DNA of 64,000 nt from Acidiphilium acidophilum. Lineage in GTDB: Bacteria > Pseudomonadota > Alphaproteobacteria > Acetobacterales > Acetobacteraceae. Numbering within the stretch: position 1 is the first letter of the stretch; the number at the start of each line of letters is the position of its first letter. The stretch covers positions 2,587,501 through 2,651,500 of the forward strand of contig NZ_JAWXYB010000018.1 of NCBI RefSeq assembly GCF_033842475.1. Reading direction: 5' to 3'. This document shows, one piece after another, positions 34,371 through 61,486 of this stretch. The translations under genes were made by a program, and so were the position numbers. The notes under the pieces are model-generated. The model made no database searches and was not told the DNA's origin. It saw only the letters and a list, made by a program, of their open reading frames with translations.

Positions 34371-34447
34371 TGGTCGGAGTAAGAGGATTCGAACCTCCGG
34401 CCCCTGCGTCCCGAACACAGTGCTCTACCAGGCTGAGCTATACTCCG
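34371..34447 (-). tRNA. tRNA-Pro (anticodon CGG)
   Basis: A 77-base cloverleaf with encoded CCA. The acceptor stem is CGGAGTA/TACTCCG. The D-arm contains AGCCTGGTAGAGC, and the T-arm GGAGGTTCGAATCCTC has the standard TTCGAAT loop. The anticodon stem CTGTG/CGCAG encloses loop TTCGGGA, so the anticodon is CGG with G37, reading CCG proline codons, which should be abundant in this GC-rich genome. Confidence 0.95.
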
Positions 34448-38466: not shown

Positions 38467-39606
38467 TTATTTGCCCGATTGACCCGCCGGAGCCGTAGCG
38501 GGTGCGGCGGTCATGGTGATCATCGCCGGGTTGGCCTCGCCGCTGGCGGCGGGGGATTTCGGATTGGGATCGGCGAGTTTGGCCGGTCCTTCGAGGTAGG
38601 GGAACTGCGCGGCCATCTTCGCACCATAGAGCGGTTTCGAAACGCCCTGATGGCAGGTCGAGCAGTCGATCTTCGCAACATCCCCGCCCGCGCCGAGCAT
38701 ATTGTGCGGGAAGGTCGCGGTCAGCGGCAGCATGTAGTCATTGTTCAGACCCCGAACCATATGGAGCCCGTAATAGGCGATCACACGCTTGGGCGTGCTT
38801 TCCGACCAGGAGCCGAAATCGCGCGACTGATGGCAGAATTCGCAATTGACCCCGAGCGAGGTGGCGAAGTTCATCATCAGCGCATAGGTCCAGTTGGTCT
38901 GCTGGATCGACATGCGGTTGCCGGTGGGCAGGGCCGTGGTGCCTTCGGTATTGATCAGCGCATTCACCCCGCCCTTGGGATGACCGACCAGAAAGGACGA
39001 GAACGGATCATAGGGCAGCGCCGAACCATCCGCCGCGAGCGAAGGCCGCGCTTCGCCGGTTGCGGTATCCATCAACCCGGTCGCATGGGGCGGTTCGACC
39101 CCGTTGAACCAGACGTATTTCGGCGCATTATTGCCGCGATGGCAGGTATAGCACGTCACGCCGACATTCTTGACGTGGGATTTCCAGTGCGAATTGATAT
39201 AGATCGTCATCTGGATCATGCGGCGCGCGACACGTTTGGTATATTTGGCATCGGACGCGAAATTGCCGCTGACATGGCAGTAGTTGCAGCCCTGCTTCGG
39301 CGCGACCCACTGGGTCATCGAGACCATGATCCGCGCGAAAGCACCGGCAGGAACGTCCTTGAGCACCTGGACGTTCTTGTAGATGGTCCCGGCCAGCGGC
39401 CCGGCATTGTTCTGCGGCAGAACCGCCGGTGCCTGATTCATCGCGAAGGATGCCGCGATCGCCGCCGGGTTCGAAACATCCATCGCGCCGGTGCCGCGAT
39501 AGCCGATCTGCTCGATGTGAGCAGGCGGGCGTTGCAAGGTGAGCACCGCAATGAAGGCCAGCGCAAGACCGCCGATCAAAGCGAGCAGGGGGATCGTGAC
39601 TCTCAT
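38467..39606 (-). CDS. pufC: Photosynthetic reaction centre tetrahaem cytochrome c subunit
   Basis: A 379-aa periplasmic electron donor to the special pair. One N-terminal helix (residues 4-24) anchors it; no lipobox Cys is present at the anchor. Four CxxCH haem sites are visible in order: CNYCH, CYTCH, CEFCH and CSTCH. Met ligands lie in the preceding helices as in the family (for example [11 protein letters not shown] and YALMMNFA). The C-terminus is Ala/Pro-rich. It is the last gene of the puf operon, and its ATG overlaps the pufM TGA (39603-39606). Confidence 0.96.
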
Positions 39607-40598
39607 GGGTTCGCTCCCGTTCCGGTCGTACCAGCGCCGGTGAGGGTGGGGTTGGGAACATGGCCGTAAACATGCGGATAAGGCGGCGCGACATGGTGCT
39701 TCACAGCCCAGAGGAACCAGTTATCGACCACGGTGCCGGTGAGCAGAATGCCGATGCCGCCGGTCAGTGTGGTCAGCACCGCGAACCACCAGGCCCAGCG
39801 ATGGATCGACTCCATCGTGGCATTGAACCCCATGGTCCAGCGCCAGAACAGCGCGGCGCGTTCCGAGGCGGTGCCACGATCCACGATCTGCTCGGCCTCC
39901 CGCTCGCCGCCGAACCGGCTGACCGCCAGAATCGTCGCCCCGTGCATCGCGAACAGCAGAACCGAGCCGTATAAAAACACGATCGAGAGCATATGGAACG
40001 GATCGTAATAGAGGTTGCCGTAACGGAGTGAAAACGAAACCGTCCAGTCCAGATGAGGAAAAATCCCAAACGGCGGCGCTTCGCCCCAGCTGCCCATCAG
40101 CAGCGGGCGAATAAAGCCGAGCACCAGGAACAGCCAGATCGCAGAGGCGAACGCCCAGGCGGTATGGGTGCCGATCCCGAGTTGGCGCGACCGGCGATAG
40201 ATCCGCGCCCACCAGAGAATCAGCGAACTGGTCAGGAACAGCCCGGCAAGCAGCCACCAGCCGCCATGCTGAAGCGGCGGAAGGCTCAGACCATAAGCCG
40301 GTGCCGGCGGTTCGAGCGCCAGCCACGGCAGATCACGCACGAATCGGATCGGGTTCCAGTTCACCGAGGCCCACATATTGAGCCCGATGATCTCGAACGC
40401 GACCACGAAACAGATGATCGAGGCCACCCCGAGCGTGCCGAGATAGATCGGCCCGACCTGGGCATTGCCGATCTGCCCGAGCATGTAGCTGAAAAAGGGC
40501 TTGCCCTGCCGGCCCCAGCTTCCCGACGGTGCGGGCACCCCCTCATGCAGGGGACCGCGGATCTGCACCCGGGTAAAGATGTTCTGGTATTCGGCCAT
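39603..40598 (-). CDS. pufM: Photosynthetic reaction centre M subunit
   Basis: A 331-aa five-helix membrane protein that binds the special pair, an accessory bacteriochlorophyll, a bacteriopheophytin, quinone QA and the non-haem iron with PufL. The N-terminus [14 protein letters not shown], the region around helix D ([32 protein letters not shown]) and [23 protein letters not shown] are characteristic; they supply the His ligands. Length is slightly longer than in Rhodobacter. It is the fourth puf gene and lies 54 bp after pufL. Confidence 0.97.
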
Positions 40599-40652: not shown

Positions 40653-41489
40653 TCAGTGTCCGCCGAACTGCCAGATCGGCAGATGCAGCCACCAGCCCCA
40701 CCATGAAGGCCAGCCCTGGGTCCAGAACGGGCCCGAGATCAGAATGCAGGCCGCACTCGCAAACCCGGCGCCGAGGGCAAGGAACAGACCAAGCCGGTGG
40801 ATGCCGAGGGTGCCGATCGAATAGCCGATGAAGTCGCGGAAAAACGTATCCTCGTGCTCGGTGAATTTGGCGGTCTCGCCCTTGGCCGGATTGACCGCGC
40901 CGAGCACCAGCGACCCGTGCAGGGCCAGCGCGAAGGTCGTGGTGAAAAACAGCGTCACCGCCACCATATGCATCGGATTATATTCGAAATTGATATAATT
41001 ATAGCCGGTGTTCGACACCCAATCGAGATGGGACATGATGCCGTAGGGAAATCCCACCCCCCACGCCCCCATCAGCAGCGGGCGGATCACTTCGAGCGAA
41101 ACATACGCGAAAATCGCGACGCTGAAGGCCGCCGGCACATGCAGGCCGATGCCGAGCTTGCGCGAAATCTCGACCTCGCGCAGCGCCCACGACCCGAACG
41201 AGCCGACCGCGCAGATGGTAATGATCTGCCACAGCCCGCCATGGGCGAGCGGCGCGAAGCCGAGCCCGTAGGAAAGGTTGGGCGGGGCGATATTGATCTC
41301 CCAGATATTCCAGGTCGGCCCGATCGCCGCACCCCAGATGATCAGGGCGGTGCCGAGCAGGGTAAAAAACCCGCCGACGACGCCGAAGAACCCGACGTAG
41401 AACGGCCCTACCCAGAAATCGAACAGATCGCCGCCGAGCAGGGTGCCGCCGCGGACCCGGTATTTTCTTTCAAAACTGAGCATTGCCAT
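40653..41489 (-). CDS. pufL: Photosynthetic reaction centre L subunit (L168 Glu type)
   Basis: A 278-aa five-helix core subunit. The N-terminus [20 protein letters not shown] is typical. Helix C to D contains [20 protein letters not shown], where residue 169 (L168 in mature Rhodobacter numbering) is Glu. Other purple bacteria have His there, hydrogen-bonded to the special pair. The special-pair ligand His L173 (residue 174, NPMHM) is kept. Helix D and E motifs [10 protein letters not shown] and [22 protein letters not shown] supply the other ligands. The Glu is the known mark of the zinc-bacteriochlorophyll reaction centres of Acidiphilium. Confidence 0.97.
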
Positions 41490-41607: not shown

Positions 41608-41790
41608 TTACTTGTTTGCCGGCATCGACGATTGCTGCTGCATCGTCATCGCCGGGCCACCCGCACCGATCCAGTCGAAACGCGGCGTGCTCAGCAGGAT
41701 GAAGTGAATCAGGATGGCCAGCGCAAACAGGAAAACCCCGAGTGCGGTGAGAACCCTGCGCGGATCGAACAGAAGCCACATGCGCCACAT
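41608..41790 (-). CDS. pufA: Light-harvesting 1 alpha polypeptide
   Basis: A 60-aa single-helix antenna subunit. The N-terminus [14 protein letters not shown] is typical of LH1 alpha. The bacteriochlorophyll-ligating His is in [12 protein letters not shown], and the C-terminal RFDWIG provides the Trp that tunes absorption. A polar tail with several Met and Gln follows. GGGAGGA lies just upstream of the ATG, 13 bp after pufB. It forms the LH1 ring with PufB around the reaction centre. Confidence 0.95.
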
Positions 41791-41803: not shown

Positions 41804-42040
41804 TCAACCGATATTCGAGGTGAGCATCTTCACCCCGATATGAGCGTTGGTGAGGAACCCGGTCACATAGCCATGCGGGCCGGGAATCCACGGGCGCCAC
41901 TGCCAGACGAGGAAGTGGGCGACGATCGCAATAACGACGAAGCCGATGAAGCTCATCGTAAAGATGGAGTGAAACTCCTTCGCTTCGCGCTCGGTCAGGC
42001 CGGATAGCGAGCCTTCCCGATCTTGTGTGGTCATGGACAT
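41804..42040 (-). CDS. pufB: Light-harvesting 1 beta polypeptide with extended C-terminus
   Basis: A 78-aa antenna subunit. Residues 1-50 are standard LH1 beta: [13 protein letters not shown] with the conserved His 24, then the membrane helix with the bacteriochlorophyll ligand His 42 in [13 protein letters not shown]. Most LH1 beta chains end within a few residues of that WRPW. Here another 27 residues follow ([11 protein letters not shown]...SNIG). ATG 42040 follows GAGGA by about 10 nt; an ATG two codons later is an alternative. It is the first gene of the puf segment, 148 bp after bchZ, with no pufQ between. Confidence 0.93.
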
Positions 42041-42149
42041 GATAGAGATATCCTCGATTTGGGCTGGCACGTTGCCGGGACAGACCAGTTCCGCGCGGAC
42101 CCCGCGCGGGGGGACGGATGCCGCCTTGCGAACGACACCCGATAGGTGA

Positions 42150-42170
42150 GCCCGGCACGCCTTGCCGGGC
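42150..42170 (-). promoter_or_regulatory. mRNA hairpin between bchZ and pufB
   Basis: GCCCGGCA and TGCCGGGC form a perfect 8-bp stem with a 5-nt loop just after bchZ. It is probably an attenuator or a processing/stability element separating bch and puf messages. Without a T-run it is not a classical terminator. Confidence 0.5.
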
Positions 42171-42188
42171 GAATGGAAAGCGACGGGC

Positions 42189-43625
42189 TCACGCAGGCAC
42201 CCGTTCGCGGAATGCGGCCTCGACATGCGCCGTGGTCACACGGGCCGACCCCTCGTGCCGGGCCTCGCGCTCGGCGCGGTCGCGCAGCCGCTTGGCCGCC
42301 GAAATCCGGATCAGGAACGGCTCGGTCTCCAAATGACGATCGAGCGCGGCCAACGCCGCCGGCTCCCACAAACCGGCCGCATCGGCGCGGGCCGGGGTCG
42401 CATCGATCTTGTCGAGTTCGGTGCCGAGCGGCAGGATGGTGAACAGCGCGTCGAACAGCGCGTTGCAGTATTCCTGCACCACATAGGTCGCTCCCGCGTA
42501 ACCCATGAACGGCGTGCCGGTCGCCCGGCGAATGATCGCACCGGGAAACGAGGCCGGAATATAGGTCGAGCGCCCGCCGCGTTCGGCGGCATACATCCGC
42601 TCGTTGAACGAACCGAACAGCACCAGCGGCGGGGTCTTCGCAATCGCCGCCCGCACCGCATCGTTGTCCGGCTTCACACCCGGCTTGCGCGCGAAGGCAA
42701 AGGTGCAGGGAATCCCCAGATCCTCCTCAAGCAGGCGCTTCAGCCCGCGCGTATAGGTCTCGGTCGCCACCACGGCGAAGCTCGCTGTCGCAAAGAAATC
42801 CTGGGTCACGCTGCGCCACAGATCCCAGATCGGCTTGATCGTGGTCTCCTTCTCGCGCGCAATGAACGGCTCCGGATCGAGCCCGGTGAGTTCACCGAGC
42901 TTGCGGAGGAAATTGGTGGTCGCATGAATGCCGAACGGTGCCATCAGATACGGCTTGCCGAGTTCCTCGCAGAGCTTGCGGCCGAACTCGCGATACAGGC
43001 AGATATTCACCCCGGCATCGGCGAGTTTCGGCGTGTCCCTGAGCTGCGCCCCGAGCGGGAACGACAGATTGACCTCGCAGCCGATCCCCTCGACCAGCCG
43101 CCTGATCTCCGCAACATCGGACGGCATGTTGAACGTGCCGTAGATCGCCCCGATGATGTTGACGAGCGGCTTTTCGGCCTTGGGCTCCGGCCGCTTCGCC
43201 TTCGCATTGCCGAACTCGCTGTACAGATAGACCAGCGCCCGATCCGCACTCTGCCACTGATCCTCATCGATCGTGCGCGGCAGAAACCGCCGGAGGTTCG
43301 AGCCCTCGGGCGTCACGCCGCCCCCGATCATCTCGGCGATACTGCCGGTCACGACAATGGCGGGCAGTTTCTGATCCCCGCTCGCGGCGGCGCGCTTCAT
43401 CGGCCCCTCGGTTCCGGTCATCGAGAGGGAATCCTCGTCGAGTCCGGTGACCACGATGGGCAGTTCATGCGGCGGCAGCGCATCGGTATAATGCAGCACC
43501 GCAGTCACCGGCAGGTTTTCGCACCCGACCGGCCCGTCGATCACGACGCGCAACCCCTTGATCGCGGAGAACACGTAAACCGCCCCCCAATACCCCCCGG
43601 CCCGATCATGATCCTGAACCAGCAT
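42189..43625 (-). CDS. bchZ: Chlorophyllide oxidoreductase subunit BchZ
   Basis: A 478-aa nitrogenase-like subunit. With BchY it forms the catalytic component of chlorophyllide a oxidoreductase, which reduces ring B to give the bacteriochlorin. The N-terminus [21 protein letters not shown], the [21 protein letters not shown] block with the cluster-type Cys and the [17 protein letters not shown] segment are typical. The start shares a base with the bchY stop (TGATG at 43623-43627). It ends the bchCXYZ run before pufB. Confidence 0.96.
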
Positions 43626-45073
43626 CAGACCACCTCCGCTTTCACGGGTCGGGTCACGGTGCGCGGCGGTGGCGTCGGCGCAGGGGCCGCTTCGAAAAAA
43701 CCGACCATGCGGCTGAACCGCTCACGCCCCTTGCACTGGGCGGCAACAATGGCGGGCAATGCCGCCGCCCCGGCAGCGCCGAAAACCGGGCGGGCCGAGA
43801 CCATATTGGTGAAATAAACCGCCGGCGTGCCGATCTCCTTCGCCGCCTGAACCAGCGGCGTCGTCCCGAGCGCCAGATCGGGCTTCACCTCGCGCATCGC
43901 CGCGATATCCTGCTCCAGCGAGGCGCGATACTGGACATGGGTGCCCTGTTCCTCCAACCAGATCCGGTCGGCATCGCTCCATTCGGTGCGCGGCAGGGCG
44001 GTCCCGACATAGGGGATCGTCGCCCCGGCCTCGATCAGCAGGCGGGCAACCAGCAGTTCCGAGCCTTCATAGCCCGAAACGACCATGCGGGCGTTCACCG
44101 GATTGGCAGCCATCACCGCACGGATCGGCGCAAGCGCCTGAGCCTTGGCACGATCGATCGTTACAGCATCGATATTGGCCGCCCTGCCGATCGCATCAAG
44201 CCAGTCGGCGGTCGCGGCCTCACCGACCGGGGCGGACCCGACCACGGCGCGACCGGCGGCGGCGAATTCCCGCACGCTGGCGGTGTAGAACGGATGCACC
44301 GCCGCGGCGATGCTGCAATCGAGTGCGGCATACAGGTCGCGCCATTCCCGCGCCGGCAGTTGCGGGCCGATCGCAAGCCCCATCGGTGCCAGCATGGCGG
44401 CAACTCCGGGCGGATCGGCGGGAAACAATTCACCGAGCAGCGTCACACGCTGCCCGTCCGCCAGTTCGGTCCGGGGCCGGGCAACCGCACCGGCCTCGGC
44501 CTCGGTGCGGGCATAGCGCAGCATCGCCCCGGCCAGCACATCCTTCGCCTCGGCATGGGTCGGCACTCCGAAACCGGGCACATCGATCCCGATGATGCGC
44601 ACCCCGTCGATCTCTTTCGGCAACAGGTCGAGCGGCACGCCCGAAGCGGTCGGCACGCACAGATTGATGATCACCACCGCATCGTAATCGGCAGGCCGCG
44701 CCGTCTCGCGCACCGCCTTGCGGATGTCCTCGAACAGCTGGCCGGTCACCAGGGTTTCGGAATCGAACGGCACATACCCCACGCTGCGGCGCGCCCCATA
44801 GAAATGCGAGGTGAAGGTCAGCCCGTAAACGCAGCACGCCGAACCGGACAGGATCGTGGCCACCCTGCGCATCCGCAGACCGACCCGCAGCGCCCCGAAC
44901 GCCGGACACATCGATTGCGGCTGATCGTGCGGCCCCTTGGGATAATCGGTCGCCAGACGATCGAGCAGCGCCGATTTCCCGGCGGCGCGCGCCGCCTGCT
45001 GCATCGTGTCGGTGCCGCCGTGGCAGCCGGCGGCTGGTTTCGCGGCGGCCACGGTGCCATCGGGCGGGCTCAT
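43625..45073 (-). CDS. bchY: Chlorophyllide oxidoreductase subunit BchY
   Basis: A 482-aa partner of BchZ in the catalytic component of chlorophyllide a oxidoreductase. Cys residues of the [4Fe-4S] cluster region are seen in [10 protein letters not shown] and [11 protein letters not shown]. The C-terminal part has the [22 protein letters not shown] block. ATG 45073 lies 2 bp after the bchX stop. The 20 extra residues of the open frame upstream would overlap bchX and are rejected. Confidence 0.96.
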
Positions 45074-45075
45074 GG

Positions 45076-46044
45076 TCACGCGCCCTCGTAGACGATTTCG
45101 AGCGAGGGTTTGTTCAGAATGGTCGACCCGCACATATCCTCAAGGCTCGCAGGCTGCAACGTCACGCCCCGCCCCACCGCCTCGCCCTTGAACAGGCCGA
45201 GCAGCGCATCGTGGGTCAGCGGCTTCGGGCGGATCGGCGGCGCTTCGGCAACCTGAACCCCGAGCGCCTCGAACAATGGCGCCCACTGTCCGCCCTTCTG
45301 GCCGACGATTTCGTAATTGGCCGATTTCCGCCGGATATCCTCATCCGCCGGAATCGCGGCCAGCACCGGAATCCCCACCGCCTCGGCAAAGGCCTGCGCC
45401 TCGCCGGTGCCGTCATCCTTGTTGATGACGAGCCCGGCAACCCCGACATTGCCCCCGAGATTGCGGAAGTAATCGACCGCCGAACACACATTGTTGGCAA
45501 CATAGAGCGATTGCAGATCGTTCGAGCCGACCACGATGACTTTCTGGCAAAGATCGCGCGCGATCGGCAGGCCGAACCCGCCGCACACCACGTCCCCGAG
45601 GAAATCGAGCAGGACGTAATCGAAATCCCATTGATGGAACCCGAGCTTGTCGAGCAGTTCGAACCCGTGAATGATCCCCCGCCCTCCACAGCCGCGCCCG
45701 ACTTCCGGCCCGCCGAGTTCCATGGCGAACACCCCGTCGCGCTTGAAACACACATCGCCGATCAGCACCGGCTCTCCCGCCGCCTTCTTGCGCGACGAGG
45801 TCTCGATGATCGTGGGGCACGAGCGGCCGCCGAACAGCAGCGAGGTGGTGTCGCTCTTCGGGTCGCACCCGATCAGCAGAACCCGCTTGCCGAGCTGCGA
45901 CATCATGTAGGACAGGTTGGCGAGGGTAAAGCTCTTGCCGATCCCGCCCTTGCCATAGATCGCAATGATCTGGGTCTGCTTCGGGGACGCGACGCTGGCC
46001 CCGACCTCGATATCCGGGGCAATACGGCCAGTGGATGCGTTCAT
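45076..46044 (-). CDS. bchX: Chlorophyllide oxidoreductase iron protein BchX
   Basis: A 322-aa NifH-like ATPase dimer that feeds electrons to BchYZ. The P-loop is IYGKGGIGKSFTLANLSYM. The two cluster Cys regions are EVGRGCGGRG and LGDVVCGGFGLP, and the switch region is CDPKSDTT. ATG 46044 overlaps the bchC TGA (46041-46044). A longer frame continuing into bchC is out of context and rejected. Confidence 0.97.
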   Translation of the reverse strand: MNASTGRIAPDIEVGASVASPKQTQIIAIYGKGGIGKSFTLANLSYMMSQLGKRVLLIGCDPKSDTTSLLFGGRSCPTIIETSSRKKAAGEPVLIGDVCFKRDGVFAMELGGPEVGRGCGGRGIIHGFELLDKLGFHQWDFDYVLLDFLGDVVCGGFGLPIARDLCQKVIVVGSNDLQSLYVANNVCSAVDYFRNLGGNVGVAGLVINKDDGTGEAQAFAEAVGIPVLAAIPADEDIRRKSANYEIVGQKGGQWAPLFEALGVQVAEAPPIRPKPLTHDALLGLFKGEAVGRGVTLQPASLEDMCGSTILNKPSLEIVYEGA

Positions 46045-46979
46045 GAGGCGTCTCTCCAATCGATGAGAAGTTTCAGGCAATCGTCCGTGCCAAAGGCGGT
46101 GTGGTAGGCGCCCGCTGCATCCCGTGCCGGGATGCGGTGGGTGATCAGCCCGCCGAGATCGAGCCGGCCTTCGGCGATCAGGGCAGTAACGCGCGCGAGA
46201 TCCGCCTTCTGCCATTGCGCCGCGATCGCAATCCGCGCCTCGCGCATGAAGGCCGGAGCGAACGCGAATTGGATGGGCGCCGCGTAGAACCCGGCAAGAA
46301 CGATCTGCCCCTGCGGCGCGAGCCGGGCGATCAGCGCATCGAGAATCGCCGCATCGCCGCTGGCATCGATCACCGCGCGATAGTCGCGCCGGGGATCGCT
46401 CCCGGCGTGGCAAATCTTGTAGCCCTGCGCGCCATCCATCCGATTCGGGTTGGTCTCCCACACCGTGGGTGCACCACCGTCGATCACCGCAAGCCGCGCG
46501 ATCAGGCGACCCAGCACGCCGTGGCCGATGATCAGATCCGGGGGCCCGCCCGCAATGGCGAGCGCATGCTGCGCCGTGGCGGCAAGAGCGATCAGCGCGC
46601 CGCGATCGCCAAGATCGGGTGCGATCGGAACAACCCGGTCAGCCCCGGCGACCAGATGGCTGGCATTGGCGCCGAACAGCCCGCGCACCGCCCCGAAGCA
46701 GCGGGCACCCGGGACGAACACATGCTCGCCGATCCGCGATTTCGCCTCCGCCCCGGCGTCGATGACACGACCGACCGCCTCGTAGCCCGGCACCAGCGGG
46801 TAGCCCATGCCGGGAAAATCCGGCATCGCACCGGACCAGATGAGTTTTTCCGTGCCCGCGCTGATCCCGCTGTAATCGACCGCCACCAGCACGTCGTTCG
46901 CAGCCGGCGCATCGAGCGCGATACGGCGAAGGGCGACGTGCTTTGGGGAGTCGATGATGACGGCAAGACTATCAGACAA
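46041..46979 (-). CDS. bchC: 3-hydroxyethyl bacteriochlorophyllide a dehydrogenase BchC
   Basis: A 312-aa medium-chain dehydrogenase that oxidises the C3 hydroxyethyl group to acetyl. Features are a GroES-like N-terminus (VDYSGISAGTEKLIWSG), FPGMGYPLVPGYEAVG and the cofactor fold LIIGHGVLGRLIARL. The start is TTG 46979, supported by GGGAGG ending 7 nt upstream; no ATG fits. Upstream lie two PpsR boxes over a sigma70-like promoter, so bchCXYZ-puf transcription can begin here as well as from crtE. Confidence 0.95.
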   Translation of the reverse strand: MSDSLAVIIDSPKHVALRRIALDAPAANDVLVAVDYSGISAGTEKLIWSGAMPDFPGMGYPLVPGYEAVGRVIDAGAEAKSRIGEHVFVPGARCFGAVRGLFGANASHLVAGADRVVPIAPDLGDRGALIALAATAQHALAIAGGPPDLIIGHGVLGRLIARLAVIDGGAPTVWETNPNRMDGAQGYKICHAGSDPRRDYRAVIDASGDAAILDALIARLAPQGQIVLAGFYAAPIQFAFAPAFMREARIAIAAQWQKADLARVTALIAEGRLDLGGLITHRIPARDAAGAYHTAFGTDDCLKLLIDWRDAS

Positions 46980-53514: not shown

Positions 53515-55030
53515 AATGGCGCGCGTCCTGCACCACGGTATCGAGCACCCGCGCGGTCGAGAGCACGCCGGGAACCCCGGCGCCGGGGTGCGTGCCGGCG
53601 CCGACGAGAAACAGGTTGCGGATATCCTCGCTCGCATTATGCGGCCGGAACCACGCGCTCTGGGTAAGCACCGGCTCCATGCCGAACCCGGCCCCGAGGG
53701 TGGAGGCATAGCGGGTCTGGAAATCCGCCGGGGTCATGATGCGCGAGGTCACGACATGCCGGGCGAGGTCGGGCAGCATGGTCTCGCTCAGCCGGGATTC
53801 GAGCGCCTGCCGGTAAGTCTCGGCATGCGTCGCCCAATCGGTATCACCGCCGAGATGCGGCACCGGTGCCAGCGCGTAGAACGCATCGCAACCCGGCGGC
53901 GCCAGCGAAGGATCGGTCGCGGTCGGGCGGTGCAGATAAATGCTCATATCCCCCGCCAACGTCCTGGTCTCGAAAATATCGTCGAGCAACCCGCGATAGC
54001 GCGGCCCCATGACGATCGCATGGTGCGGCACCTCGGCATAGCGTTTGTCGGTGCCGAAATACCAGACGAACAACCCCATCGAGTAGCGCGTCCGGTCGAG
54101 CTTGCGATCGGTCCAGCGCCGGCGCGGGGCATCGCGCAGCAGATGTTTATACGTATGCGCGGTGCAGGCATTCGACACCACGATATCGGCGGCGATGCTT
54201 GTGCCATCCTCAAGCACCACGCCGGTGGCCACCCCGTTCGCGGTCGTGATCCGATCGATCGTGGTATTGCAGCGGATCGTCCCGCCCTGCCCCGCGATCA
54301 GCCCCACCATCCCCTCCACGATGCGCCCGGTCCCGCCCATCGCGAAATGCACGCCGTGCCTGCGTTCGAGATGCAGGATCATCGCATAGATCGCGCTGAC
54401 CTTGAACGGATTGCCGCCCACCAGCAGCGGATGAAAGCTAAGCGCCGCACGGATGCGCTCATCCCGCACATGCCGCGCCGCGAGCGCATACACGCTGCGA
54501 TGACCGGACAGACGCAGCAGATCGGGCAGAATCCGCGCCATGTCGGTCCACGACCCGAACGGCACGTGGCCGAGCTGCTCGAACCCGATCCGGTAAATCT
54601 CCTCGGTCAGCGCGATGAATTTTTCATACCCGGCAAGATCCCCCGGCGCGAGGCGCAAAATCTCCGCGCGCATGAAGCCGGGGTCCGACGCGCAATCGAT
54701 ATACGAGCCCCCGTCGAACCGGATGCGATAGAACGGCTCGATCGGCACGAGGTTCACATCATCGGCAAAGCGCCGCCCCGCGAGGCTCCAGAGTTCTTCG
54801 AGCAGAAACGGCGCGGTAATGATGGTCGGCCCGGCATCGAAGGTGAACCCGTCCTGACGGAACACCGAAGCCCGCCCGCCCGCCTGCTCGCAGCGTTCCA
54901 GCACGCTCACGCGCCAGCCCCGCGCGCCGAGCCGAATGGCGGCGGCCAGCCCGCCGATCCCGGCGCCGATCACCACGGCATGGGGCCGATGCCGGTCGGT
55001 CATCGCCGCACGGTCCGGCATCGCGTTCAT
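53507..55030 (-). CDS. crtI: Phytoene desaturase CrtI
   Basis: A 507-aa FAD enzyme that converts phytoene to neurosporene or lycopene. The N-terminal dinucleotide fold is HAVVIGAGIGGLAAAIRL, followed by GGRASVFRQDGFTFDAGPTIIT. The C-terminal bacterial-type desaturase signature is NLFLVGAGTHPGAGVPGVL. ATG 55030 overlaps the bchO TGA as ATGA, so it is chosen among several nearby Met codons. The number of desaturation steps cannot be told; spirilloxanthin producers usually make lycopene. Confidence 0.95.
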   Translation of the reverse strand: MNAMPDRAAMTDRHRPHAVVIGAGIGGLAAAIRLGARGWRVSVLERCEQAGGRASVFRQDGFTFDAGPTIITAPFLLEELWSLAGRRFADDVNLVPIEPFYRIRFDGGSYIDCASDPGFMRAEILRLAPGDLAGYEKFIALTEEIYRIGFEQLGHVPFGSWTDMARILPDLLRLSGHRSVYALAARHVRDERIRAALSFHPLLVGGNPFKVSAIYAMILHLERRHGVHFAMGGTGRIVEGMVGLIAGQGGTIRCNTTIDRITTANGVATGVVLEDGTSIAADIVVSNACTAHTYKHLLRDAPRRRWTDRKLDRTRYSMGLFVWYFGTDKRYAEVPHHAIVMGPRYRGLLDDIFETRTLAGDMSIYLHRPTATDPSLAPPGCDAFYALAPVPHLGGDTDWATHAETYRQALESRLSETMLPDLARHVVTSRIMTPADFQTRYASTLGAGFGMEPVLTQSAWFRPHNASEDIRNLFLVGAGTHPGAGVPGVLSTARVLDTVVQDARHYV

Positions 55031-56001
55031 GCGCCGCACACCCCGATGGCGGTGGCGAATTCCTCGATGATCCGCGCGGTCTCCGCCGGCGCTTCCTCAT
55101 GCGCGAGGTGCCCGAGTTTCGGCATCGAGACCAGTCTGGCACCCGGCACCATGCGCGCGATCCGCTCCGCCTCGCGCGGCGAAATCGCGCGGTCATTGGC
55201 CCCGGTCACCAGCAGCAGGCGCGGCGCGAAGCGGGGCAGATCGGTCTCGATCGCATCGAGGTTCCAGTTCGCCATCATGGTCAGGGCCGAGGCGGCATGG
55301 CCGCTATGGCGGACCAGCGCGGCATAATGCGTCTCCCCGGCCGCATCGATGGTCGAACCGGTCCCGGCGAGCAGGCGGTGCACCACCGCGGGGCTCCGCG
55401 CCCGCCACGCGAACAGGCGCGGCACCAGCGGGTTCATCGCGAAAACCTTGGCGATCGGCGAAAACACCCGCGTCATATTGCCCCGATACGGCAACAGCGC
55501 GCCATTGAGGCTGACCAGCCCCGCCGGCGCGAGCCGCCCGTTGCGGCACATCTCGATCCCGATCGCCGCCCCGGCGGAATGACCGACGATCAAATCAGGC
55601 TTCAGCGCGAGCGCATCGAGCAAGGCATTCAGCGCCCCCGCCATGCCGGGCAGCGACATGCGCGGCCAGCCCGGCATTTCGGTGAACCCGTGCCCGGGCA
55701 GATCGGGCGCGATGACGGTGAACCGCCGTGCGAGTGCAGGGGCCAGATCCCGCCACGAATGAGTCGCCGCCCCGGTGCCGTGCAGCAGCAGCACGACCGG
55801 CCCGGCCCCCATGACCTGAACATGAAAGCGCAGGCCGCCCGCCTCGACGAAGCGGCTCGCCGCGCGATTGGGCCAGGCCGCGCCGTCGCGCTCCCAGTCC
55901 GGCGCGCCATCGCCCATCAGCGCCTGCCAGAGCGAGGCGTCATGCCCCCGATCGATCGGAGCGGCTGCGGTTTCGGTCATTTCAAGCGCCATTCGGGTCA
56001 T
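55027..56001 (-). CDS. bchO: BchO, alpha/beta hydrolase of the magnesium-chelatase operon
   Basis: A 324-aa alpha/beta hydrolase found with bchID in purple bacteria. The oxyanion region VVLLLHGTGAATHSW, the nucleophile elbow GHSAGAAIG, the acid in GANDRAIS and the His in LGHLAHEE give a plausible Ser-Asp-His triad. The N-terminal DWERDGAAWPNRAASRFVEAGGLRFHVQ is the BchO-type start. Its reaction is not established. It lies 3 bp after bchD and overlaps crtI. Confidence 0.93.
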   Translation of the reverse strand: MTRMALEMTETAAAPIDRGHDASLWQALMGDGAPDWERDGAAWPNRAASRFVEAGGLRFHVQVMGAGPVVLLLHGTGAATHSWRDLAPALARRFTVIAPDLPGHGFTEMPGWPRMSLPGMAGALNALLDALALKPDLIVGHSAGAAIGIEMCRNGRLAPAGLVSLNGALLPYRGNMTRVFSPIAKVFAMNPLVPRLFAWRARSPAVVHRLLAGTGSTIDAAGETHYAALVRHSGHAASALTMMANWNLDAIETDLPRFAPRLLLVTGANDRAISPREAERIARMVPGARLVSMPKLGHLAHEEAPAETARIIEEFATAIGVCGA

Positions 56002-56004
56002 CTT

Positions 56005-57795
56005 TCAGGCCGCCTGCGCGCGCACGGCGTGGCTGAGCGCCGCCGCATCGGCGAAGGGCAGCGGCAGATAGCGCCCCTCCATCAGCCGCGCGAGTTCGGC
56101 AGCGAACGGATTGCGGCGCGGCGCGGTGTCGATCACCATGGCCGCAAGCCCGGCAGCGGCACAGGATTGCGCGGCACCACGGGCATCGCGCCCGGCGGCC
56201 TCCCGTCCCGGCTTGCCGTCCCGCCCGATATTCGCCCCGCCGTCGGTCAGCAGCACGATCAAGGGCCGCGCCCCCCGGCGCCGCTCGGCCAGCGCCATGT
56301 CGCGCGCGGCATCGATCCCGAGCGCAAGCGGCGTGGCCCCGCCCCCCGGCAAGGCGGCCAGGCTGCGGCGGGCACGGGCGAGCGCGCCGGTCGGCGGCAG
56401 CAGCACTTCGGCGGCGCGGTTGCGAAACGCGATCAGCGCGACCTGATCGCGCCGCACATAGCAATCGGCGAGCAGCAGCTGGATCGCCCCCTTGGCTTCG
56501 GCCAGCCGGTTCAACGCCGACGACCCCGACGCATCGACCGCGAAAATCGCCACCGCCCGCACCGGCGCGATAAACCGCTTGATCCGGAAATCCTCGGCGC
56601 GAACCATCACGCGCGGCCCGCCCGCCGAGGCGGCCCGATCCCGGCGGCGCAAACGCTGCATCGGCGCGGCGGCGCGCAGCGTATCGATCACGGCAAGCCG
56701 CGCCCCATTGCCGGGACGGCCCGGCCGCACCCCGGCGGGACGACCCCGCATCCCCCCGGCCGCACGATCGACCGCACCCCCCCCGGCACTGCGCGCGGGC
56801 GGCGTGTGGCCATGCATCGCCAACGCCGCCAGCAGATCGAGCGGCAAGGCGATGCGGGCGGCATCCAGCACCCGGTCGGCCATGTCTTCCGGCGTCCGGC
56901 CCGGTTCGCCCCGCTCCTCCGGCACTTCATCCGGCATGGACGATCGGGCTTCAGCCTCCGATGTCTGCCGCTCCGGCTGCGCTTGCTGCTCCGCCTGCTG
57001 TTCGGGCGTTGGCAGCGTCGTTGCGCGCGGCGCCAAAATCAGCCGCGCGGCCAGAATGGCATCGGCCTCGGCCACGGTTGCGCGCGCGGCCAGCGCCGCG
57101 GCGGCACGGGCAGCGCGCAGCGCAAGAATCGTCCCCCGCAACGACCCGATCCCGAGCGCAGCGGCCGTCCCGCACAAAGCGGCGGCAATCCCATCCGGCA
57201 CCACGACCCGCGCAAGCCGGCGGCGCGCGCCAGCAATCCTGCCGGCACCGGGCCAGACGAACGCGCCCACGAACGTGTCGTCGAGCATGGTCTCATCGAG
57301 CATGAACGCAAGCCGGTCGGCCAGCGCAGCCGGGGCGGCCTCATCGCCGATCCCCTCATCGAGCGCGATCACCCCGAACCGCGCGTCCCGCACACTCATC
57401 ACCCCGTCCCGCGCCACACTCACCGTCCCGCGATCGAGTGACGCCACCAGCTTGCCCACCAGCGCGCGATCCAGCCGCTCCGCCATCGGGATCACCACGA
57501 CACCGCCATCGATCTCCGCGAGCAGCCCGGTCGCCGCGATCCGCGAGCCCGACCGCAGCGTCGCCGCCAGATCGAGCCCGCCCAAAAGCCGGTCATCGCT
57601 GATATGGGCGGGCAGGCGGCGCACCGGCATGGCGGATGGCAGCAAGGCACGGCAGCGCGCAATAAATTCATCCCGCGCCGGCCCGATCCGGCTGCGGATC
57701 ACCATGCCACCGAGCCCGACCGGATCGATCGCGAACAGGCACGCGGCAAGCCCGGCATTGCGGGTCGGTTTACGCGGTGCCGGCATCGGGCTCAT
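56005..57795 (-). CDS. bchD: Magnesium chelatase subunit BchD
   Basis: A 596-aa subunit that works with BchI and BchH to insert metal into protoporphyrin IX. The N-terminal AAA-like half (LLGGLDLAATLRSG) lacks a Walker A motif, as usual for BchD. An acidic, Pro/Gln/Glu-rich linker (about residues 265-320) is followed by a von Willebrand A domain with the MIDAS motif DASGSSALNRLAEAKGA and LTDGGANIG. The start overlaps the bchI TGA (57792-57795). In Acidiphilium the final pigment carries zinc, so this chelatase may act before a later metal exchange. Confidence 0.95.
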   Translation of the reverse strand: MSPMPAPRKPTRNAGLAACLFAIDPVGLGGMVIRSRIGPARDEFIARCRALLPSAMPVRRLPAHISDDRLLGGLDLAATLRSGSRIAATGLLAEIDGGVVVIPMAERLDRALVGKLVASLDRGTVSVARDGVMSVRDARFGVIALDEGIGDEAAPAALADRLAFMLDETMLDDTFVGAFVWPGAGRIAGARRRLARVVVPDGIAAALCGTAAALGIGSLRGTILALRAARAAAALAARATVAEADAILAARLILAPRATTLPTPEQQAEQQAQPERQTSEAEARSSMPDEVPEERGEPGRTPEDMADRVLDAARIALPLDLLAALAMHGHTPPARSAGGGAVDRAAGGMRGRPAGVRPGRPGNGARLAVIDTLRAAAPMQRLRRRDRAASAGGPRVMVRAEDFRIKRFIAPVRAVAIFAVDASGSSALNRLAEAKGAIQLLLADCYVRRDQVALIAFRNRAAEVLLPPTGALARARRSLAALPGGGATPLALGIDAARDMALAERRRGARPLIVLLTDGGANIGRDGKPGREAAGRDARGAAQSCAAAGLAAMVIDTAPRRNPFAAELARLMEGRYLPLPFADAAALSHAVRAQAA

Positions 57796-58829
57796 GCCGC
57801 GACCGCGCTTGGCGCGAACAGTTCGGAAACCGCGCGTTCGACCCGTGCCCCGGCGAGGCTCTCATCGAGCGGATCGCGCCGCAGCCGGTGGCGCAACGCG
57901 GCAGGAGCCACGGCCCGCAGATGCGCCTCGCTCACCTCGCACGCCCCCTCCAGCGCCGCCTCGGCGCGGGCGGCGCGCAGCAGCGTGAGTTCGCCGCGCA
58001 ACCCGTCAGTGCCGAGCTGAAGGCAAAGCTGCGCGGCCCGGCGCAGGATCGCCTCCGGCACCACAACAAGCGGCAAAATCCTCATCGCATCCACCAGTTG
58101 CCGCCGCAGCGCCGCTTCCGCCGGCGCGAACCGGGCCATGAACCCGCGCCGGTCGTGCTCGAACGCATCGCGCCGCCGCACCACCTCGATCCGCTGGTCG
58201 AGATCGGTCGGGGTCTTGACCTCGACGCAGAGTCCGAACCGGTCGAGCAGTTGCGGGCGCAACTCGCCCTCCTCGGGATTGCCGCTGCCGATCAGCACGA
58301 ACCGCGCCGGGTGGCGCAGGCTCAACCCCTCGCGTTCCACCACATTCTCGCCCGAGGCCGCGACATCGAGCAGCAGATCGACCAGATGATCTTCGAGCAG
58401 ATTGATCTCATCGATATATAAAAAGCCCCGATGAGCGCGCGCCAGCAGGCCGGGCTCGAACGCCTTGACCCCATCGGACAAGGCCCGTTCGAGGTCGAGC
58501 GCACCGACCACCCGATCCTCGGTGGCCCCGAGCGGCAGATCCACCACCGGTATCGCCACCCGCTCGGCAGGCAGCCGCCCCGCCGCACGGCGGGTGCGGC
58601 AATCCGGGCAGAGCGCCGCGCGATCCGAAGGGTCGCAATGATAGACGCATCCCGCAACCGCGCGCATCGTCGGCAACAGCGCCGCCAAAGCCCGGACCGC
58701 CGTGGATTTGCCGGTGCCGCGATCGCCGAACGCCAGCACCCCGCCAAGCGCCGGCTCCACCGTCGCGATCAGCATCGCCCGGACCATTTCCGACTGGCCG
58801 ACAATGGCGGTGAACGGATAAAGCGCCAT
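57792..58829 (-). CDS. bchI: Magnesium chelatase ATPase subunit BchI
   Basis: A 345-aa AAA+ ATPase. Walker A is in AFGDRGTGKSTAVRAL, Walker B in GFLYIDEINLLEDHLVD, and sensor 1 in FVLIGSGNPEEGELRPQLLDRFG. The CxxC-containing loop DPSDRAALCPDC is present. ATG 58829 (MALYPFTAIVGQ) gives the normal N-terminus; the open frame continues upstream through tspO but is not coding. It lies 2 bp after the tspO stop. Confidence 0.96.
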   Translation of the reverse strand: MALYPFTAIVGQSEMVRAMLIATVEPALGGVLAFGDRGTGKSTAVRALAALLPTMRAVAGCVYHCDPSDRAALCPDCRTRRAAGRLPAERVAIPVVDLPLGATEDRVVGALDLERALSDGVKAFEPGLLARAHRGFLYIDEINLLEDHLVDLLLDVAASGENVVEREGLSLRHPARFVLIGSGNPEEGELRPQLLDRFGLCVEVKTPTDLDQRIEVVRRRDAFEHDRRGFMARFAPAEAALRRQLVDAMRILPLVVVPEAILRRAAQLCLQLGTDGLRGELTLLRAARAEAALEGACEVSEAHLRAVAPAALRHRLRRDPLDESLAGARVERAVSELFAPSAVAA

Positions 58830-59366: not shown

Positions 59367-60554
59367 TCATGCGTGCATCAGCCGGGTCAGCCGCGCCATG
59401 TTCTTGGTGAAAATCCGCAGGTGCACGACCGGCCTGGTGCGCACCAGCGCCTTGTTCATATAGGCCTGCCAGGTCATCGCCTGCACATCGGCATCGCCGC
59501 AGATCGCAACGAACAGCTCCCGCCGCCGGTCGCTCGAATACCAGAAATTCTGCATGAACCCGAGCACGAAAAACACCATCCCGTGGGTCTTCATGAAGCG
59601 CTTGCGCGCCGTCCGCAGCGCCCTCGCCTCCCCCGTGGCGCAGAATTCATCGACCGCCTCGCCCGCCAGCTGGCCACCGAGCATGGCGTAATAAATTCCC
59701 TCGCCCGAAGCCGGCGCAACCACCCCGGCGGCATCCCCGGCGAGCAGCACGTTGATCCCGTCATCCCAGCGCGGCAGCGGCTTGAGCGGCAGCGGCGCGC
59801 CTTCGGAGCGGATCGTCTCCGCCCCGGCCAGCCCCGCCGCACTCCGCAGATCGCCCACCGCCCCGCGCAGCGAAAACCCCTTGACCGCACTACCGGTGCC
59901 GATGCTCGCGGTCTCGCCATGCGGAAAGATCCAGGCATAGAAATCCGGCGACACCCGCGCATCGTAATGGATCTCGCATTGCTGCGGATTCCACCCCGGC
60001 GTCCCGGCGGGCGGCGATTTGATCACCTCGTGATAGGCGAACACCCGTTTGTGCTTGTCCGCCCCCGGAATCGTCTGCCGCGCCACGGCGGACACCGCCC
60101 CATCCGCGCCGATCACCGAGCGCGCCCGCACCACGTCGCTGCCCGCCCCCGTCTTGAAATGCACGCTCGTGCGCCCCGTCGCATCCCGTTCGAGCCGCTC
60201 GAACCGCCCGGTCCGCCGTTCCGCCCCCGCTGCCGCCGCCCGCTCGCGCAGGAACTCGTCGAACACATCGCGATCGACCATACCGACATAACCGCCATCA
60301 TCGATCGGCATCGCCACCGTCTTCGCCGTCGGGGAAACGATGTTCGCCCCCCGCGCCCTCGCCACGATCAGATGCTCCGGAATCGCATAATCGCGGATCA
60401 GTCGCGGCGGGACCGCCCCGCCGCACGGCTTGATCCGCCCGGCGCGGTCGAGCAGCAACACCGTGCGCCCGGCCTTCGCCAGCGTCTCCGCAGCAGTCGC
60501 CCCCGCCGGGCCACCGCCGATCACCACCACATCGTATTCGCCCATCTGTGCCAT
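59367..60554 (-). CDS. bchP: Geranylgeranyl reductase BchP
   Basis: A 395-aa flavoprotein that reduces the geranylgeranyl tail of bacteriochlorophyll to phytyl. The N-terminal YDVVVIGGGPAGATAAE FAD fold, KPCGGAVPPRL, the GADGAVS motif and LLAGDAAGVVAPASGEGIYYA are those of the BchP/ChlP group. ATG 60554 lies 2 bp after the bchG stop, so the two tail-adding enzymes are coupled. Confidence 0.96.
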   Translation of the reverse strand: MAQMGEYDVVVIGGGPAGATAAETLAKAGRTVLLLDRAGRIKPCGGAVPPRLIRDYAIPEHLIVARARGANIVSPTAKTVAMPIDDGGYVGMVDRDVFDEFLRERAAAAGAERRTGRFERLERDATGRTSVHFKTGAGSDVVRARSVIGADGAVSAVARQTIPGADKHKRVFAYHEVIKSPPAGTPGWNPQQCEIHYDARVSPDFYAWIFPHGETASIGTGSAVKGFSLRGAVGDLRSAAGLAGAETIRSEGAPLPLKPLPRWDDGINVLLAGDAAGVVAPASGEGIYYAMLGGQLAGEAVDEFCATGEARALRTARKRFMKTHGMVFFVLGFMQNFWYSSDRRRELFVAICGDADVQAMTWQAYMNKALVRTRPVVHLRIFTKNMARLTRLMHA

Positions 60555-60556
60555 CG

Positions 60557-61486
60557 TCAGACCCCCGTTGCGGCGAGCGCGAAGGCGCTGACCAGCATCC
60601 CCAGAACATAAAGCGTGGTCCCCGTGGCATTGTACCAGGGAGCCCGTTCGCGCGGCTTTTCCAGCAGCCGGCGCATCAGCACCAGTTGCACCGCGAGCGA
60701 AACCCCGATCAGCCCCGCCGCCCACAAATGATGCCAGCCGATCATCAGCAGAATCACCCCCGCCTGCGGCACCGTCATGATCACGCAGGCGATCACCGCC
60801 GCCCGCATCACACCAAGCTGCGCCGGCAGTGAGCGGATGCCGATCTTCAGATCCCCCTCGACCGATTTGAAATCGTTCAGCGTCATGATGCCATGCGCAC
60901 CCACGCTATAAAGCGCGGCGATGATCAGAATATTCACCGAGGGCAGCGCATCGCGCATCACCGCCGCCCCGGTGAACCACGGCACGCCCTCGTAACACAG
61001 CGCCACCGCCGCATTGCCCCACCAGCCGTTCATCTTGAAACGGAACGGCGGCGCGCTGTACCCCCAGGCGGCGAGCAGCGCGAACACCGCCGCGCCGAAC
61101 CCCCACGGCCCGAGCGGCACCGCCACCAGCAGCGACGCGCCCGACCAGATGATCGCGATATAAAGCCCCCAGCGCCCCGGCATCCGCCCCGAGGGGATCG
61201 GCCGGTCCGGCTCGTTGATCGCATCGACATGCCGGTCGAACCAGTCGTTCACCGCCTGCGAGGTGCCGCACACCATCGGCCCGGCCAGCACCATGCCGAG
61301 CACCAGCTCCGGCCAGCGCGCGGCGAGCGGCACGCCCGAGGACACCACCCCGCACATGAACGCCCAGATGGCGGCGAACCACGTGACCGGCTTGAGCAGT
61401 TCGAGACAAACCCTGAGATCAGGCAGCCGCAGCGGCGCAACGACGGACCGATCGAGCACAAGGCCGGGTTTGTCCGCTGGCGTCAT
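60557..61486 (-). CDS. bchG: Bacteriochlorophyll synthase BchG
   Basis: A 309-aa UbiA-family membrane prenyltransferase that esterifies (bacterio)chlorophyllide with geranylgeranyl diphosphate. The Asp-rich motif is NDWFDRHVDAINEPDRPIPS and the second polar site NDFKSVEGDLKIGIRSLP. About eight helices are visible. ATG 61486 follows GGAG by 5 nt. It lies 18 bp after ppsR. In this organism its natural substrate may be the zinc form, which is inferred. Confidence 0.96.
   Translation of the reverse strand: MTPADKPGLVLDRSVVAPLRLPDLRVCLELLKPVTWFAAIWAFMCGVVSSGVPLAARWPELVLGMVLAGPMVCGTSQAVNDWFDRHVDAINEPDRPIPSGRMPGRWGLYIAIIWSGASLLVAVPLGPWGFGAAVFALLAAWGYSAPPFRFKMNGWWGNAAVALCYEGVPWFTGAAVMRDALPSVNILIIAALYSVGAHGIMTLNDFKSVEGDLKIGIRSLPAQLGVMRAAVIACVIMTVPQAGVILLMIGWHHLWAAGLIGVSLAVQLVLMRRLLEKPRERAPWYNATGTTLYVLGMLVSAFALAATGV

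Follow-up and report, generated by a model that had tools for sequence, protein, structure and literature searches.

The question raised by this locus is whether the glutamate that its reaction center L subunit carries in place of His L168, the textbook tuning residue of the bacterial special pair, marks a center built with zinc bacteriochlorophyll (BChl), as the original prediction held. The window, the whole stretch of 64,000 nucleotides that was analyzed, comes from a genome of 4.16 Mb in 21 contigs (G000) and contains a photosynthesis gene cluster on the minus strand, with the puf genes at 38.5-42.2 kb, the chlorophyllide reductase genes and bchC at 42.2-47.0 kb, carotenoid genes, and bchO, bchD, bchI, and bchP at 55.0-60.7 kb (Table 1). 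The only RNA gene found in the window is a tRNA-Pro (cgg) at 34371-34447.

Table 1. Photosynthesis genes of the window and codons of the special-pair and QB positions discussed in the text
Feature	Coordinates	Strand	Basis or comparison
pufC, tetraheme cytochrome subunit	38467-39606	minus	CytoC_RC, E 1.6e-119
pufM, reaction center M subunit, 331 aa	39603-40598	minus	profile match
codon GAT, Asp at M199	40002-40004	minus	Asn in 41 His-L168 loci fully read
codon TAT, Tyr at M197, symmetry mate of L168	40008-40010	minus	alignment
codon CCG, Pro at M175	40074-40076	minus	Val in 41 His-L168 loci fully read
codon AAT, Asn at M44, partner of L213 swap	40464-40466	minus	alignment
pufL, reaction center L subunit, 278 aa	40653-41489	minus	Photo_RC
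codon GAT, Asp at L213 near QB	40848-40850	minus	Asn in 18 family members compared
codon CTG, Leu at L179	40950-40952	minus	Phe in 41 His-L168 loci fully read
codon GAA, Glu at mature L168 of PufL	40983-40985	minus	alignment
codon AAT, Asn at L166	40989-40991	minus	His in 18 His-L168 family members compared
pufA, LH1 antenna peptide	41608-41790	minus	LHC; A by gene order
ORF with C-terminal pufB, LH1 antenna peptide	41804-42226	minus	LHC at residues 81-114; B by gene order
bchZ, chlorophyllide reductase subunit	42189-43625	minus	Z by order and PCP_red domain
bchY, chlorophyllide reductase subunit	43625-45133	minus	Y by order
ORF holding bchX	45076-46461	minus	match at residues 164-446; true start later than ORF start
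bchC	46041-46979	minus	
bchO	55027-56001	minus	
bchD, Mg-chelatase D subunit	56005-57795	minus	open frame, DASGSS motif at 421
bchI, Mg-chelatase I subunit	57792-58829	minus	open; Walker A GDRGTGKST at 35; start chosen at MALYPFTAIVG
bchP, geranylgeranyl reductase	59367-60725	minus	

The window PufL scores 301 bits against PF00124 (Photo_RC; E 6e-90), for which the curated cut-off is 27. The R. sphaeroides L and M chains served as alignment references, the L sequence being identical to chain L of PDB 1AIG, and the global alignment of the window PufL with the L chain has no internal gap ahead of L168; residue 169 of the window protein is therefore mature L168, at which R. sphaeroides has His and the window Glu. 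The original prediction had placed Glu at PufL 169, between positions 40970 and 40990, and had described His L173 as retained, and the alignment confirms both, with the His L173 codon at 40968-40970. The PufL of A. rubrum also has Glu at L168, the residue by which an Acidiphilium-type reaction center is recognized. GAA encodes the residue in each of the 28 Glu loci that were read, some of which share a genome, and because the step from a His codon (CAT or CAC) to GAA requires two base changes, a one-base error does not account for it. The features that define a type II PufL, the His ligands L153 and L173 and the Fe ligand L190, are present in every sequence compared (12 from the Glu clade, 18 from the His clade), and the BChl ligands L153, L173, M182, and M202 are intact in the Glu sequences compared (12 PufL, 11 PufM).

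Glu at this position is as rare, and His as nearly universal, as had been claimed. A PufL match is present in 125 of 397 genomes of the family, and L168, read in 124 of these, is His in 112 and Glu in 12; the remaining genome (G018) has one weak match (E 4.5e-6). A motif that leaves L168 free, and that overlooks PufL with differing neighbor residues, was found in 25 of 385 genomes sampled from the class (24 with His and the window with Glu) and in 32 of 398 sampled from the phylum (30 with His, the window with Glu, and one with Ser), so that these two samples, which overlap in some genomes, contain no motif match with Glu L168 besides the window. The Ser, in G893, is a motif match alone and may be a chance match. 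The 12 Glu genomes are that of the window, seven congeners (one of them conspecific), G023, and three (G283, G325, and G368) from one further genus. When contigs of named genomes were scanned with the Glu motif, 22 loci were obtained, 9 without a PufL match and 13 that are PufL with Glu; the 13 records comprise A. rubrum and three others named Acidiphilium, four metagenome-assembled genomes (MAGs) named Acidocella (loci L033, L035, L037, and L040), and five MAGs that bear only a higher-rank name (L041, L043, L047, L051, and L053). Judged from these sequences, Glu L168 extends beyond Acidiphilium to MAGs labelled Acidocella and their kin.

Two irregularities were seen in the family scan. The PufL of G216 is split over different reading frames, one piece covering residues 1-152 and the other, which overlaps it, residues 141-276 (locus L150, G216:C1:313000-314300); this suggests a frameshift or an assembly error. 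In addition, G043, G383, G128, and G206 have two or more PufL-like places each, perhaps representing two puf clusters or mixed bins.

The window PufL is 100% identical to that of the MAG Acidiphilium sp. STC_15, 97% identical to that of A. rubrum (locus L032), and 96% identical to that of Acidiphilium sp. PA; as its PufL groups with named Acidiphilium, the window organism is, by this protein, an Acidiphilium. In a tree constructed with IQ-TREE from 54 distinct PufL+PufM rows (13 with Glu), with the trait columns masked, L168 changes once. The Glu group has support of 100/99 and is set apart from the other rows by a branch in every one of 200 PufL+PufM bootstrap trees, and the Glu taxa are likewise on one side of a branch in each of the separate pufL, pufM, bchD, bchI, and bchH trees, the lowest support being 0.922 for bchI; the apparent PufM matches of G125, G154, G062, and G370 are PufL and were excluded from the gene trees. 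The placement of the sister of the Glu clade is weakly fixed, with support of 0.224 in one tree and 84/85 in the masked IQ-TREE. Being confined to Acidiphilium and close kin, with a single change on the tree, the residue has the worth as a taxonomic clue that was claimed for it. The single origin also means that sequence alone is unable to separate zinc from acid, since any tie of Glu L168 to zinc rests on one lineage, in which zinc is confounded with extreme acidity.

A single change, on the fairly long branch that leads to the Glu clade (0.15 changes per column in the PufL+PufM tree), could also represent neutral drift confined to this lineage, in which a mainly respiring cell could do without its hydrogen bond to PA. 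The family scan gave no PufL match in 5 of 13 genomes of the genus of the window (G153, G288, G328, G345, and G357), which indicates that phototrophy can be lost; it seems that the photosynthesis cluster has disappeared from part of the genus or is missing from drafts. However, the Glu group in the masked tree has no nested His row even though its members go down to 81% PufL identity with the window, and the accompanying changes cluster at two symmetric special-pair positions while the ligands and QB residues are kept, so that we regard drift as quite improbable.

These accompanying changes are part of nine strictly fixed differences between the Glu clade (12 PufL, 11 PufM) and His-L168 family members (18 PufL, 13-15 PufM). 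From the His clade to the Glu clade, they are His to Asn at L166, His to Glu at L168, Phe to Leu at L179, and Asn to Asp at L213 in PufL, and Asp to Asn at M44, Gln to Asp at residue 89 of the window protein (M88), Val to Pro at M175, Phe to Tyr at M197, and Asn to Asp at M199 in PufM. Four of the nine are within 5 residues of L168 or M197, as are 22 of 335 invariant columns (hypergeometric P 0.0014, for windows that were chosen after seeing the data). The L213/M44 pair is, we presume, the known Asp/Asn exchange near QB. At L104 (PufL residue 105), which we take to be the site that bonds the bacteriopheophytin keto group, Glu is found in 12 of 12 Glu-clade sequences and Gln in 17 of 18 His-clade sequences. 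In a table of the 67 loci that could be read fully, from which rows lacking a column (L043, L051, and L116 are examples) are omitted, the 26 Glu loci (several from one genome) have a single pattern; among the 41 His loci, Asn L166 occurs in 7 and Tyr M197 in 5, and Asp L213 and Asn M44 occur as well. The residues that are exclusive to the Glu clade and also occur in every fully read member of it are Glu L168, Leu L179, and Pro M175; Asp M199 is also confined to the clade, but locus L043 combines Glu L168 and Tyr M197 with Asn M199.

Acidic residues at M199 lower the P/P+ potential electrostatically. By symmetry, M197 occupies at the PB acetyl group the place that L168 has at that of PA; loss of the L168 bond lowers P/P+ by 95 mV, the Phe to Tyr change at M197 raises it by 30 mV, and L166 interacts with L168 and tunes the L168 bond (PMC8895020). 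With these roles, the clade would have swapped its PA donor, dropped the L166 helper, and gained a likely PB donor. The reading to which we incline, and which we consider rather probable, is that of a purple-bacterial type II center of Acidiphilium in which His L168 was replaced by Glu once, in an acidophile ancestor, within a retuned, acid-tolerant special-pair site, Zn-BChl a being assigned by kinship. The His that donates a hydrogen bond to the PA acetyl group would have been exchanged in the ancestor of the Acidiphilium/Acidocella acidophile clade, in company with Asn L166, Tyr M197, and usually Asp M199, together with the Asp/Asn swap near QB. At the acid outer face, Glu and Asp may be neutral and able to donate a bond, so that Tyr M197 would hold PB and a protonated and uncharged Glu L168 would hold PA; the substitution would remove a His liable to become charged beside P at this very acid face and would tune the P/P+ potential. 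Zinc would be put into the pigment after Mg, and Glu would go along with zinc as neither its cause nor its proof.

A further reading, which we advance tentatively and with less than even expectation, is that Glu L168 is the core of an acid-proofed site that arose once, and not a zinc residue, the zinc pigment being a separate acid adaptation of the same lineage. If so, His L166 and His L168 would have been lost, Tyr M197 would have brought a hydrogen bond to PB, P would be flanked by carboxylic acids that remain uncharged at pH 2-3, and the QB pair would have been swapped; the phototrophic MAGs labelled Acidocella would share the protein site whatever their metal. Against the reading to which we incline, the L chain of PDB 7xxf, which we take to be the structure of Rhodopila globiformis, keeps His at L168 in the alignment. 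This species grows at pH as low as 3 (PMC9640540), so that, if 7xxf is from it, an acidity of about pH 3 needs no Glu. In favor of the same reading, the fraction of Asp, Glu, Lys, and Arg in PufC is 0.114 in 10 Glu loci and 0.151 in 19 His loci, a comparison that ignores relatedness, that includes two loci of one genome (L040 and L153) and three that reach a contig end (L053, L246, and L255, the last overlong at 621 aa), and that excludes L033 and L037 (short PufC) and L250 (no PufC). The low charge of PufC in the Glu clade agrees with a remark on A. rubrum in PMC9640540.

A. rubrum makes exclusively Zn-BChl a, and its chelatase inserts Mg first, zinc coming afterwards (PMC4944227). Through its kinship with this species, as measured by PufL, the window organism probably has Zn-BChl a as its pigment, and to this extent the prediction of a zinc-BChl reaction center stands; the part of it that took Glu L168 itself as evidence of zinc does not, in view of the single origin and of R. 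sphaeroides bchD mutants, which assemble photosystems with Zn-BChl (PMC4944227). Since bchD alone is mutated in these strains, their L subunit presumably keeps the native His L168. Glu L168 could nevertheless be a specific adaptation to zinc, restoring a geometry or potential upset by Zn-BChl a and so marking a zinc center wherever it occurs, as the original prediction supposed. Acidiphilium has both the published Zn-BChl a and Glu L168, and Rhodopila, called a sister genus in PMC12542754, is described there as having no Zn-BChl a in its mat and would have His L168 if 7xxf is its structure. Against this are the bchD mutants, the fact that L168 contacts an acetyl group and is not a metal ligand (PMC8895020), and the one change on the tree, which leaves the tie to zinc without an independent replicate; we consider a specific zinc adaptation unlikely. 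Acidisphaera is reported to make Zn-BChl conditionally, at raised zinc (PMC12654162). Glu L168 is a mark of the lineage and is not by itself proof of zinc, which may not require it.

The bchD mutants also suggest a different source of the metal, in which the zinc pigment of the clade would arise from decay of the Mg-chelatase through BchD. BchD identity to the window does fall fast, to 57% for G196, whose PufL is 90% identical, and bchD is faulty in 3 of 12 Glu-clade genomes: that of G382 has two in-frame stops, that of G232 lies in two frames, and none was found in G309. The mean distance within Glu taxa relative to that within His taxa also places bchD (0.88) and bchH (0.90) above pufL (0.70), pufM (0.63), and bchI (0.74), these ratios being calculated without G382, which belongs to the species of the window, and without the bchD of G232. 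However, zinc of the bchD-mutant type calls for a broken or missing bchD, and that of the window is open, as are those of eight other Glu-clade genomes (9 of 12); DASGS is conserved in 10 of 10 Glu-clade BchD sequences compared; and the ratio for bchD is no higher than that for bchH. Further, G382, G232, and G309 are drafts with 83-96% completeness in 70-580 contigs, and similar faults are seen in His-L168 genomes, with bchD not found in G074 and in fragments in G039, G128, G108, and G213, and with the bchH of G026 split over two frames. In-frame stop counts other than that of G382 bchD are, as we read them, mostly query ends that lie beyond the true genes. The bchH gene on the contig of the window, approximately 3.8 kb past the end of the window, is also open, and open bchI, bchD, and bchH are expected because the A. 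rubrum chelatase inserts Mg first (PMC4944227). Chelatase decay is, in our estimate, very improbable.

The bchI gene was likewise not found in G309. Fixed differences of the Glu clade are present in BchD (Glu to Gln at 439 and Arg to Gly at 520) and in BchH (locus L200; Asn to Asp at 263, His to Tyr at 808, and Trp to Tyr at 1092) and are candidates for any link of the chelatase to zinc, whereas BchI has no strictly fixed difference between the Glu and His clades.

Glu at L168 of Acidiphilium has reportedly been described by Nagashima in 1997 and by Hiraishi and Shimada in 2001. A search for literature containing both "Acidiphilium" and "L168" found none, most subscription papers being outside its reach, and neither the set of changes at L168, M197, and M199 nor its occurrence in Acidocella-labelled MAGs was met in a literature search that was mostly below full-text depth and covered few subscription papers. 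Photosynthetic traits have been published for some Acidocella, in a paper whose main text does not contain the word zinc (PMC10715153). A lineage that has naturally replaced His L168, its symmetry mate M197, and their neighbors provides a natural experiment in donor tuning, and the same site in the Acidocella-labelled MAGs offers a way to separate zinc from acid; it also provides a warning against taking Glu L168 as proof of a zinc pigment.

Among known systems, the center of A. rubrum is like that of the window in its PufL (97%), in Glu L168, and in having the same residues at L166, L179, L213, M44, M175, M197, and M199 (locus L032), but A. rubrum differs as a species, with 93% identity in PufM and 79% in BchD (G096, which is taken to be this species since its PufL and PufM are identical to those of L032). 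Blastochloris viridis uses BChl b. Its center is of the four-subunit type, like that of the window, and likewise has Asn at L166 and Tyr in the place of M197, but it retains His L168 (PMC8895020). The R. sphaeroides center belongs to the same fold family and has the same BChl ligands, Asn L166, Asp L213, and Asn M44, but differs in His L168, Phe M197, and Asn M199 and in its three subunits without PufC (PMC8895020). The R. sphaeroides bchD mutant has Zn-BChl in a purple-bacterial photosystem (PMC4944227), as the window organism probably does by kinship; in the mutant, the supposed source of the zinc is ferrochelatase, the Mg-chelatase having been lost, whereas bchI, bchD, and bchH of the window organism are open. 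Finally, the P840 center of Chloracidobacterium thermophilum has a special pair of Zn-BChl a', but it is a type I homodimeric center and is not comparable at L168.
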